NCBI GenBank assembly: GCA_012729695.1
Contig: JAAYCP010000184.1
Coordinates: forward strand, 1 to 40,524
Source of the DNA: Actinomycetales bacterium
GTDB lineage: Bacteria; Actinomycetota; Actinomycetes; Actinomycetales; Dermatophilaceae
DNA: 40,524 bases
Direction: 5' to 3'
In this document: positions 22,678 through 32,098 of the stretch, piece after piece
Layout: every line of letters starts with the position of its first letter
How positions within the stretch are numbered: position 1 is the stretch's first letter
The notes under the pieces: generated by a model
Told to the model about the DNA's origin: nothing
The model's database searches: none
The model's input: the letters and a program-made list of their open reading frames with translations, nothing else
Translations under genes and position numbers: made by a program

Positions 22678-22777
22678 CGGGTCGTCCGGCCCGGTTCGTC
22701 CACGTGACGTCGCTCTCATCGGGCGGAACGAGCGTCCATGATGCGGATATCCGGTATCCGGCGCTCGAGCACGGGCG

Positions 22778-22783
22778 TACCGT
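22778..22783 (+). promoter_or_regulatory. -10 element of the serA-leuB leader unit
   Basis: TACCGT lies seven bases before the ATG of the short ORF at 22791, the same leaderless spacing as ilvD, ilvE and others here. Just upstream is a direct repeat TATCCGG TATCCGG (22749-22762) that could bind a regulator. Confidence 0.55.
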
Positions 22784-22790
22784 CGATTCC

Positions 22791-22838
22791 ATGACCTCGC
22801 GGCGCGTACTCATTCGCAGCCGCGACGAGGTGAGCTAG
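22791..22838 (+). CDS. Short leader ORF with a Val-Leu-Ile run (MTSRRVLIRSRDEVS)
   Basis: 15 codons. Residues 6-8 are Val-Leu-Ile encoded by GTA CTC ATT, two of them rare codons at this GC content. The last codons form the 5' arm of a perfect 10-bp hairpin. Position between serA and leuB, codon content and the leaderless -10 all fit a branched-chain amino acid attenuator leader. Unlike the ilvB and cimA leaders, I see no T-run terminator directly after it, and the next gene is a microprotein, not a biosynthetic enzyme. Confidence 0.6.
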   Translation: MTSRRVLIRSRDEVS

Positions 22839-22883
22839 TCGGTCCCCTCGTCGCGGTGATCCCGCGATGCCGCAGCGCTGCGG
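22821..22883 (+). promoter_or_regulatory. Leader hairpins after the Val-Leu-Ile ORF
   Basis: CGCGACGAGG (22821-22830) pairs perfectly with CCTCGTCGCG (22846-22855), enclosing the leader stop codon. It is followed by the perfect palindrome CCGCAGCGCTGCGG (22870-22883). The core CGCGACGAG arm is shared with the cimA leader hairpin at 31772-31796. A third small hairpin GCCCCT/AGGGGC lies near 22906-22921. Confidence 0.65.
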
Positions 22884-22978
22884 ACTGACCGACACGAGTG
22901 GCTCGCCCCTCACCAGGGGCTCGAGCACCCACATCACACTCACCACGAACCAGCGACGACGCGATCAAGGAGACTGTC

Positions 22979-23059
22979 ATGAGCGAAGAGGCACAGCGCG
23001 CCCGCCAGGCGCTGCAGGAGTCGATGGACCTGCGCGAGCAGGGCCACACCGACGAGTGA
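22979..23059 (+). CDS. 26-residue microprotein of unknown function
   Basis: ATG 22979 has AAGGAG seven bases upstream, a strong ribosome site. The product, 26 residues beginning MSEEAQRARQALQE and ending GHTDE, is highly charged and would form one amphipathic helix; G/C-rich third positions match real genes here. A strong terminator hairpin follows 12 bases after the stop, so this is a complete small transcription unit headed by the Val-Leu-Ile leader ORF. I do not recognise a family. Its place between serA and leuB suggests, but does not show, a link to branched-chain or serine metabolism. Confidence 0.65.
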   Translation: MSEEAQRARQALQESMDLREQGHTDE

Positions 23060-23071
23060 GCCCAACCCGAT

Positions 23072-23110
23072 GAACGGGGCCCGTCCGGCGCTGCCGGGTG
23101 GGCCCCGTTC
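23072..23110 (+). terminator. Terminator hairpin after the microprotein gene
   Basis: GAACGGGGCCC (23072-23082) pairs without mismatch with GGGCCCCGTTC (23100-23110) around a 17-base loop. No long T-run follows. It separates the leader/microprotein unit from leuB, which has its own -10. Confidence 0.75.
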
Positions 23111-23153
23111 GCATGGTGAGGGGTTCACCGCGCGGCACGGTCGCAGCTGCTTG

Positions 23154-23245
23154 ACCCGGTTGTGCCGGGTGACCGGGATATGCCCAGGTGGCCGGGTTGT
23201 CCCCGCGTGACCCGGCAATTGCACGGTCACCGGCCTGCAACCCGG
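23154..23245. repeat. Cluster of five CCGGGT/ACCCGG hexamers upstream of leuB
   Basis: ACCCGG or its complement occurs at 23154, 23165, 23192, 23210 and 23240. Two of them form an inverted repeat (GCCGGGT at 23191, ACCCGGC at 23210). The 330 bases between terminator and leuB hold no ORF I would support, so this may be an upstream regulatory region. High GC content raises the chance expectation for this hexamer. Confidence 0.45.
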
Positions 23246-23393
23246 TCGCGCGTTCGGAAGCCGGTCACCGGCGCACCTCCCGACACCACGACGTATGCGG
23301 TGGCTGGCCGACCCAGCCGGCCCACCGACTGCGGTGACCGTTTCGCGAGACGCAAGGTCCGCATACCGGGACGTCGCTCTAGTCTGTCCAGCT

Positions 23394-24449
23394 ATGACTG
23401 AGAGCATCCCGACTTCGCTCGACATCGCCGTCATCGGGGGAGACGGCATCGGTCCGGAGGTCGTTGCCGAGGGACTGAAGGTCCTCACGGCGGCTGCCTC
23501 GGGGGTGAGTGTGACGACGACCGAGTACGACCTCGGTGCGCGTCGCTGGCACGCCACGGGGGAGACGCTTCCGGACTCCGTCCTCGAGGAGCTGCGCGGC
23601 CACGACGCGATCCTCCTCGGCGCCATCGGCGACCCGAGCGTGCCGAGCGGGATCCTCGAGCGGGGCGTGCTGCTGCCGTTGCGCTTCGCCCTGGAGCACT
23701 ACGTCAACCTGCGTCCGGCCACGCTGTTCCCGGGCGTGCGCAGCCCGCTCGACGTCGCGAGCGTGGCGCCTGACGGCATCGACTTCGTCGTGGTGCGGGA
23801 GGGCACCGAGGGCCCCTACGTCGGCAACGGCGGCTCCCTGCGCACGAACACTTCGAACGAGATCGCGACCGAGGTGAGCGTCAACACCCGCTTCGGCGTC
23901 GAGCGAGTCGTCCGCGACGCTTTCGCCCGCGCCCAGGCCCGTCCGCGCAAGCACCTCACGCTCGTCCACAAGCACAATGTGCTCACGCACGCCGGACACC
24001 TGTGGCGGCGCACTGTCGAGGCCGTCGGCAAGGAGTTCCCCGAGGTCGAGACCGCCTACCAGCACGTCGACGCCGCGACGATCTTCCTCGTCACCGACCC
24101 CGGTCGCTTCGACGTCATCGTCACCGACAACCTCTTCGGCGACATCATCACCGACATCGCGGCGGCGATCGCCGGCGGGATCGGCCTGGCTGCGAGCGGG
24201 AACATCAACCCCGACCGCAGCGTCCCGAGCATGTTCGAGCCGGTCCACGGCTCCGCTCCGGACATCGCGGGGCAGGGCAAGGCAGACCCGACCGCGACGA
24301 TCCTGTCGGTCGCGATGCTGCTCGACCACGTCGGGCTCACCGGCGCGGCCACGCGCGTCGAGGAGGCCGTCGCTGCCGACCTGGCCGAGCGCGGCGACGC
24401 CGTCCGCTCGACCACGGCCGTCGGTGACGCCATCGCCGCCCGGCTGTAG
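23394..24449 (+). CDS. leuB: 3-Isopropylmalate dehydrogenase
   Basis: 351 residues. It oxidatively decarboxylates 3-isopropylmalate in leucine synthesis (and methylmalate-type substrates in the citramalate route). Visible landmarks are [17 protein letters not shown], the substrate-loop region [24 protein letters not shown], the tyrosine-containing [13 protein letters not shown], the Lys in [10 protein letters not shown] and the metal aspartates in [12 protein letters not shown], with [18 protein letters not shown] for NAD. It is the actinobacterial short form. ATG 23394 is eight bases after TAGTCT; the open frame to 23295 has no homology. Confidence 0.97.
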
Positions 24450-31632: not shown

Positions 31633-31727
31633 TAACGGCGCGCGTGTGGTCCGGTCCACCGGGCGGCGACTGCCCATCATGTGGACACCACTGGGTATGC
31701 GGTGATCGCCTTGGCAGAGTGGGGCTC

Positions 31728-31772
31728 GTGATGACCTTCCGTGCCGCGACCGCGGCCGTCATTATCGACTAG
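31728..31772 (+). CDS. cimA leader peptide with an Ile-Ile run (ends AVIID)
   Basis: GTG 31728 or ATG 31731 opens a 13-14 codon ORF, MTFRAATAAVIID, ending with Val-Ile-Ile encoded by GTC ATT ATC just before the stop. CAGAGT, the same -10 as in the ilvB leader promoter, lies seven bases before the GTG. A 10-bp hairpin begins at the third base of the stop codon and a T-run terminator follows. The gene beyond is citramalate synthase, the entry to isoleucine from pyruvate, so isoleucine-sensing attenuation is the natural reading. Confidence 0.72.
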   Translation: MMTFRAATAAVIID

Positions 31773-31823
31773 CGCGACGAGCCCAGCTCGTCGCGCAGAC
31801 CTCCCGCACCCGGGGGGTCTTTT
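31772..31823 (+). terminator. cimA attenuator: hairpin plus intrinsic terminator
   Basis: GCGCGACGAG (31772-31781) pairs perfectly with CTCGTCGCGC (31787-31796) around CCCAG. Immediately after, AGACCTCCCG (31797-31806) pairs with CGGGGGGTCT (31811-31820, one wobble), and the stem runs into TTTT. The two stems abut. I found no clear antiterminator by eye. Confidence 0.8.
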
Positions 31824-32098
31824 GCTTTGTCGGGAAGGTTTCACACCTGAGAAGACCTGGCCGGCGGAGCAGACAGGACCGGCCCACACCCCAGGGCGGG
31901 ACCTGGCACAGCGTTGGTCGACAATGGACATCGGGAGCGGCTCACGTGAGGCTGCGCGCGTGGCGCCGGCGTCGAGGTGAACCCGGCCGGCCGGGTCCTC
32001 GTCGATGGTGGCGCCCGCGGCACCTCGGGTGGGACCTCTCCGACCCCAGGGCCGTGGACCGCGGCCGACCGAGATCTTCCTGACGAAGCGAAAGAACG
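31824..32098 (+). other. Long untranslated stretch between the attenuator and cimA
   Basis: 275 bases with no ORF I would call, beyond an 18-codon ATG frame from 31924 that lacks a ribosome site. GAAAG, six bases before the cimA ATG, is a modest ribosome site. Together with the attenuator it makes a leader of about 370 bases. Confidence 0.5.

Follow-up and report, generated by a model that had tools for sequence, protein, structure and literature searches.

A LEU-like leader RNA with Val/Leu/Ile codons precedes, and may control, a conserved microprotein encoded near branched-chain amino acid biosynthesis genes in Actinomycetes

The interval between serA and leuB in the stretch of DNA analysed here (the window; 40,524 nt) raises the question of what a short leader rich in branched-chain amino acid (BCAA) codons might control when it is followed by a hairpin and a 26-codon ORF rather than an enzyme gene. 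The window comes from a 3.04-Mb draft genome of the Dermatophilaceae, with Nostocoides sp. F2B08 as the closest named relative; the parts of the unit all lie on the + strand. An earlier note, made from the letters of this DNA, had proposed an amino-acid-sensing unit with a small protein or RNA as its output, and had named lack of conservation of its two ORFs in the serA-leuB gaps of relatives as fatal to the proposal. Every feature listed there was located in the sequence, and the observation lies well beyond chance. Both ORFs were found to be conserved, and the sequence supports an amino-acid-sensing layout in which a conserved small protein, and not an enzyme, is the output.

The 26-codon ORF (MSEEAQRARQALQESMDLREQGHTDE; 22979-23059) is preceded, as had been claimed, by a strong ribosome site, AAGGAG at 22967-22972, and AAGGA-type sites were detected in many relatives. 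When MSEEAQRARQALQESMDLREQGHTDE was used as the query, the microprotein was identified in 114 of 150 Dermatophilaceae genomes, representing 40 of 53 genera. A profile search was positive for 127 of 395 sampled Actinomycetes genomes, including most of the sampled f26 (Streptomyces-like) genomes as well as members of f24, f27, f34, and f16, where the family labels (f24 to f34) are arbitrary and the names Streptomyces-like and Micromonospora-like are guesses based on genome size and sequence. Across a phylum sample of 296 genomes, matches at an E-value of 1e-4 were confined to the Actinomycetes class. The core of the family, R.ALQ(E)(S/A)(M/L/I)D.R(D/E).G(G), contains near-invariant residues, and comparison of 73 distinct core DNA sequences yielded a pN of 0.100 and a pS of 0.443 (ratio 0.23). 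The microprotein is much more constant than its DNA and is thus under protein-level selection. No match near any cut-off was found among Pfam, NCBIfam, or PDB sequences, and no credible plasmid-borne relative was found. In the literature outside subscription journals, we found no printed occurrence of the conserved motifs and no description of a leuB-linked microprotein, with an earlier mention in subscription papers being possible. As far as sequence comparison can tell, the 26-residue ORF is a member of an undescribed microprotein family, and its product is probably a short hydrophilic helix. A variant form was also observed: in a group of Micromonospora-like loci (L047-L057, f27 g102), the microprotein has a 10-residue C-terminal extension and no leader, and seemingly begins at a promoter of its own.

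The genes surrounding the microprotein were examined across these genomes. In most of the 114 loci the microprotein lies between serA and leuB; its flanks are mostly serA and/or leuB and are otherwise ilvC or ilvD, with the microprotein positioned 3′ of ilvC in some lineages (L031, L032, L035, and L036) and 5′ of ilvD in Janibacter (L034, L116, and L119). An orthologous leuB was wanting in 14 of the 150 family genomes, none of which carried the microprotein; these genomes, of which six lack leuB and eight (genus g47) have only a distant paralogue of ~52% identity, reflect a small number of independent events, and an assembly gap may account for one of them. The microprotein was also absent from ~20 family genomes with an orthologous leuB and is therefore not essential to the pathway. 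Among Streptomyces-like loci, leuB was found within 3 kb downstream of the microprotein in four of six and not in the remaining two.

Proximity to leuB suggests an alternative in which the ORF is a cis-acting second leader that tunes leuB through coupling or reinitiation, the protein itself has no role, and the separate unit of Dermatophilaceae is a late rearrangement. This reading would account for the ORF ending within ~30 nt of the leuB start, or overlapping it, in L033, L039, and f34, and it accords with the proposal that short ORFs raising translation of the next gene are common in Actinobacteria (PMC4833913). We consider it unlikely in view of (i) the near-invariant residues and the pN/pS ratio of 0.23; (ii) the strong stem and promoter-like box that separate the ORF from leuB in Dermatophilaceae; and (iii) the maintenance of the microprotein beside ilvC and ilvD, and in some Streptomyces-like loci that have no leuB in the 3 kb examined. 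Retention of the protein sequence beside ilvC and ilvD is the strongest counter to this alternative and to that of an RNA effector, considered below. As a separate observation, the microprotein stop codon of L039 overlaps the leuB start (ATGA), an arrangement that suggests translational coupling with leuB at this locus. Because the ORF ends within ~30 nt of leuB or overlaps it in L039 and f34, the leader, microprotein, and leuB may form one message where the leader occurs there.

The boundary between the unit and leuB is marked in the window by a stem-loop at 23071-23111 (-41.2 kcal/mol, z -5.15). Stems of -30 kcal/mol or lower were found after 66 of 90 distinct microproteins compared with 14 of 170 random places. 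The stem, described in the earlier note as an 11-bp terminator stem, is followed by no U-run; it is a probable terminator. A leuB promoter-like sequence, TAGTCT, was located by inspection at 23380-23385, 8 nt before the leuB ATG at 23394, and would place the unit boundary upstream of leuB; CTAGGCT/TAGTCT-like boxes precede leuB in relatives. Thus, plain run-through into leuB, which had been listed as evidence that would count against the unit, does not describe the Dermatophilaceae layout but may apply to other families (L039 and f34), where leader, microprotein, and leuB apparently form one unit. By the same comparison, the assertion that the unit differs from ordinary attenuators by ending before any enzyme gene holds in Dermatophilaceae and apparently not in L039 and f34, and is lineage-specific.

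Upstream of the microprotein, a leader ORF (MTSRRVLIRSRDEVS, then stop; 22791-22838) with a Val(GTA)-Leu(CTC)-Ile(ATT) run begins 7 nt after a -10-like box, TACCGT at 22778-22783, in a leaderless layout; both had been pointed out in the earlier note, including the rare GTA and ATT codons. TACCGT, TAATCT, or TAACCT was found at an equal distance from the leader ATG in nearly all relatives. A scan of the unit with the sigma-70 consensus detected no promoter. Further upstream, at 22734-22748, a 15-bp sequence (GTCCATGATGCGGAT) with two mismatches to GTCCANNATGTGGAC is a predicted operator resembling those of NdgR, a controller of BCAA genes in Streptomyces with the published motif [GT]T[CT]CAC[CA][CTA][TC][GC][TC]GGAC (PMC4340878), and sites of the GTCTCA-N-TGGGAA type occupy the same place in relatives. 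Leaderless leaders with a Val/Leu/Ile run and an RGE/RDE ending were identified at 55 non-identical loci (typically MTRQVVLI..RGE.R followed by the stop), and leader and microprotein occur together in at least seven families (f1, f3, f15, f16, f24, f27, and f34). In f34, MRSVFVLIDCRGEA and its variants were present at 15 of 15 loci; the leaders of other distant families include MRQVLVLITCRGGA (part of f24), MRHALILRCRGGA (f3), MRFVLILRCRDGA (f15), MRHIFVLRCRGGAS (f16), and MLWSVRILSCRDGAR (f27), each ending at a stop codon. Where leuB loci had no recognised microprotein (14 loci), the leader was also missing in 13. In the fourteenth (L233, genome G175), the leader MRKQLVVIACRGGAS and its stop are kept, and the microprotein is decayed with loss of its helix core (MNTYPIEWGPAHLRDDAVTPAVEPAERPDDN). 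Codon usage in the leaders was skewed to rare codons: ATT accounted for 46 of 67 Ile codons, GTA for 45 of 91 Val codons, and CTT for 34 of 101 Leu codons, compared with 2%, 0.3%, and 1.5%, respectively, in window genes, where the leaders are drawn from many genomes and the control genes from the home window alone. Shine-Dalgarno pairing does not explain the rare leader codons, since common codons would pair better.

The leader runs into a conserved RNA structure. The hairpin across the leader stop, previously reported as 10 bp, was found to extend to 11 bp (P1; CCGCGACGAGG at 22820-22830 with CCTCGTCGCGG at 22846-22856), and its loop contains the TAG stop (22836-22838); the stop codon lies in or at the P1 loop at 55 non-identical loci. 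P1 was paired in 99.3% of cells across 45 sequences and displayed two covarying pairs, one changing from GC to AU in seven sequences and the other from AU to GC in four. The part of the loop that follows the stop codon is paired with a strand lying 40-60 nt further downstream, and the two form a pseudoknot, which in the window joins TCGGTC (22839-22844) to GACCGA (about 22888-22893). Own partners had a mean energy of -10.68 kcal/mol compared with -9.05 (sd 0.25) for permuted partners, with 0 of 2,000 permutations as good, and the helices were found to be diverse yet complementary (e.g., CCAGCC/GGCTGG, TCAGCG/CGCTGA, GATCAGC/GCTGATC, and GAGGCC/GGCCTC in addition to that of the window). A competing hairpin, P1b (CGCGG with CCGCG; 22852-22868), takes the 3′ arm of P1; it was 98.2% paired and nearly invariant, with weak covariation. 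In the minimum free energy (MFE) fold of the window, P1b was formed with the pseudoknot helix nested around it. P1 and P1b are mutually exclusive, a layout that suits a switch. The MFE fold also included a third hairpin, P3 (GGCTCGCCCC/GGGGCTCGAGC; 22900-22927), and a hairpin is visible by eye at this place in many relatives. The second palindrome of the earlier note, CCGCAGCGCTGCGG, is present at about 22869-22882 within the region connecting the pseudoknot, and shows no conservation in the alignment of relatives. A scan of 22680-23450 revealed no terminator-like site, and no U-run terminator was found between the leader and the microprotein. The Rfam 15 covariance models, including T-box, riboswitch, and leader RNAs, provided no plausible match to the window unit or to 17 distant loci. 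Two further candidates were set aside: (i) competition between the 5′ arm of P1 and P3 was rejected, as genomes with GACGAG keep a P3 that by eye does not match it; and (ii) a rut-like C-rich linker for Rho is not claimed, the C minus G value being 0.14 versus 0.01 in control windows, with ~10% of controls equal to it.

A stable structure that is conserved and closes with a strong stem is also what would be expected if the unit were a small regulatory RNA (22791-23111) acting on other ilv-leu messages, with the leader and ORF carried along. We regard this as highly improbable, given the protein-coding signal of the 26-codon ORF, the linker between the RNA structure and the ORF, which is not conserved, and the persistence of the microprotein family at loci with a different 5′ RNA or none (L047-L057 and L150-L155). 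The last of these, which are Streptomyces-like loci with no leader, have another conserved and apparently structured 5′ region ~100-330 nt before the microprotein (CTTAGCTTTGTAGGAGCCGAACGTC...GCGAATGGCGGTCG...GGCAGGCAACCCCTGCGG) without an Rfam match.

The P1 pattern was used to search the 3.04-Mb home genome and returned exactly two matches, the present unit and the leader of leuA (MGHTLLLRCRGEA, then stop), while the reversed-pattern control returned none. Among 120 family genomes, two hairpin classes were found to recur: GGCCTGA (leuA) and TAGTCAGC (microprotein). The home leuA copy is recognizable by sequence as the LEU element of Seliverstov et al. 2005 (PMC1262725), in which a leader with Leu codons is combined with a pseudoknot, an alternative hairpin, and a base stem formed by pairing of the codon run with the Shine-Dalgarno sequence of leuA. 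As a positive control, the base stem was detected in 14 leuA elements (own partners -10.79 versus permuted -9.44 kcal/mol; 42 of 3,000 permutations), while the same procedure on 50 microprotein elements left it unsupported (-7.77 versus -8.47 kcal/mol). Pairing of the base-stem type was present in some sub-lineages (L025, L101, and L121). Because the base stem was not found for the microprotein elements as a group, the unit is, by this comparison, a LEU-like relative and not a LEU element by definition. The earlier note had missed the twin before leuA, together with the pseudoknot and the NdgR-like operator at 22734-22748, and had instead related the hairpin to the leader of cimA; CGCGACGAG does recur there (31773-31781), but as a single arm only. 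In the cimA leader (31731-31831), the codons for MTFRAATAAVIID and a stop come before CGCGACGAG/CTCGTCGCG, and a terminator (GACCTCCCGC..GGGGGGTCTTTTGCTTT) lies beyond; the whole resembles an ordinary attenuator of the Ile/Val type, and positions 31672-31686 hold an NdgR-like site. With one shared arm and a U-run terminator of its own, the cimA leader was rejected as a close relative, the true twin being leuA.

The LEU element bears on a further alternative, in which the pseudoknot is the binding site of a regulatory protein and the leader codons are not sensors. A helicase-domain protein was suggested for the LEU element by Seliverstov et al. (PMC1262725), and leader-codon mutants of leuA and ilvB in Streptomyces coelicolor were reported not to behave as in classical attenuation (PMC1262725), but a protein site would not need codons skewed to rare ones, and in the same genome the codon run of the leuA twin (Leu) is systematically unlike that of the unit (Val/Leu/Ile). 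This alternative thus appears quite improbable to us.

Taken together, we think it fairly probable that a LEU-like RNA recoded to Val/Leu/Ile controls a microprotein acting in trans on BCAA synthesis. Transcription would start at the leader ATG from a promoter that may be under NdgR, and immediately upstream of the 5′ arm of P1 the ribosome would encounter the rare codons GTA, CTT/CTC, and ATT, at which the supply of charged tRNAs could be sensed. Fast translation would allow P1 and the pseudoknot to form; a ribosome stalled on these codons would block the 5′ arm and leave the 3′ arm free for P1b, around which the pseudoknot strand would be nested. While the pairings are conserved and mutually exclusive, the choice between P1 and P1b would be made by the ribosome. 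The RNA state may then set microprotein output through translation start or transcription, likely at a higher level in BCAA shortage, and the conservation and gene neighborhood of the microprotein suggest that it may act in trans on an ilv-leu enzyme or regulator. The stricter proposal, that a class-wide microprotein is devoted to regulating BCAA synthesis in trans and that the charging of Val, Leu, and Ile tRNAs determines its production by way of a duplicated and recoded LEU-type pseudoknot leader, is put forward tentatively, at somewhat less than an even chance. Microprotein selection and spread, the BCAA neighborhood, leader conservation, the codons, covariation, the pseudoknot, and the leuA twin all count for control of the microprotein by the LEU-like RNA. 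Counting against it are (i) the base stem that would explain Shine-Dalgarno control, which appears to be lacking here though detectable before leuA; (ii) the apparent absence of a U-run terminator between leader and microprotein; and (iii) the non-classical leader-codon mutants of S. coelicolor (PMC1262725). Leader control would not be universal, because Streptomyces-like genomes carry the microprotein at loci without the leader.

With these results, BCAA synthesis, which matters for industry and for antibiotic precursors, gains an unannotated and ancient microprotein family that is also represented in Streptomyces-like and Micromonospora-like genomes. The results also provide a second natural LEU-type pseudoknot, with other sensing codons and no base stem; as one genome holds both elements, the mechanism of the leuA element, a long-standing question, can be tested directly by comparing them. 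Leader peptides are usually viewed as cis controllers of enzyme or transporter operons, and the output here is apparently a small protein; if true, amino acid sensing by a leader peptide would be relayed through a small protein, beyond cis action on an enzyme operon. What appears new is the microprotein family and its pairing with a LEU-like element, neither of which was found in the databases and literature searched. The label of an undescribed system does not extend to the RNA part, which is a variant of an already published element, its leader, hairpin, and pseudoknot being closely related to those of the leuA LEU element.

Comparison with known systems places the unit as follows. It shares with classical transcription attenuators a leader with many codons for the amino acids to be sensed, but not the U-run terminator. 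The ilvB/ilvBNC attenuators of Corynebacterium, Mycobacterium, and Streptomyces likewise have a leader ORF of Ile/Val/Leu codons and precede BCAA genes; however, they place a U-run terminator hairpin before an enzyme operon (PMC1262725), whereas the unit has none and, in Dermatophilaceae, no enzyme gene before the stem. LeuL1 of Streptomyces lividans (MRFGLLLLSCRGEGL; PMC8079986) is similarly leaderless, and the hairpin arm dictates the same (S/C)RGE layout at its C-terminus, yet it has a leucine run and is positioned before leuA (PMC8079986). The LEU element is alike in its short leader ending in ..RGE/RDE.., branched-chain codon run, stop-codon hairpin, pseudoknot, and competing hairpin, and the home leuA copy shares the hairpin almost to the letter. 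The unit differs from it in that (i) the codon run is of rare Val/Leu/Ile codons, as opposed to LLL/LLLL in the leuA twin; (ii) the Shine-Dalgarno sequence comes after an extra hairpin and a longer linker, with the base stem unsupported; and (iii) the output is the microprotein and not leuA, the unit being situated between serA/ilvC and leuB/ilvD.
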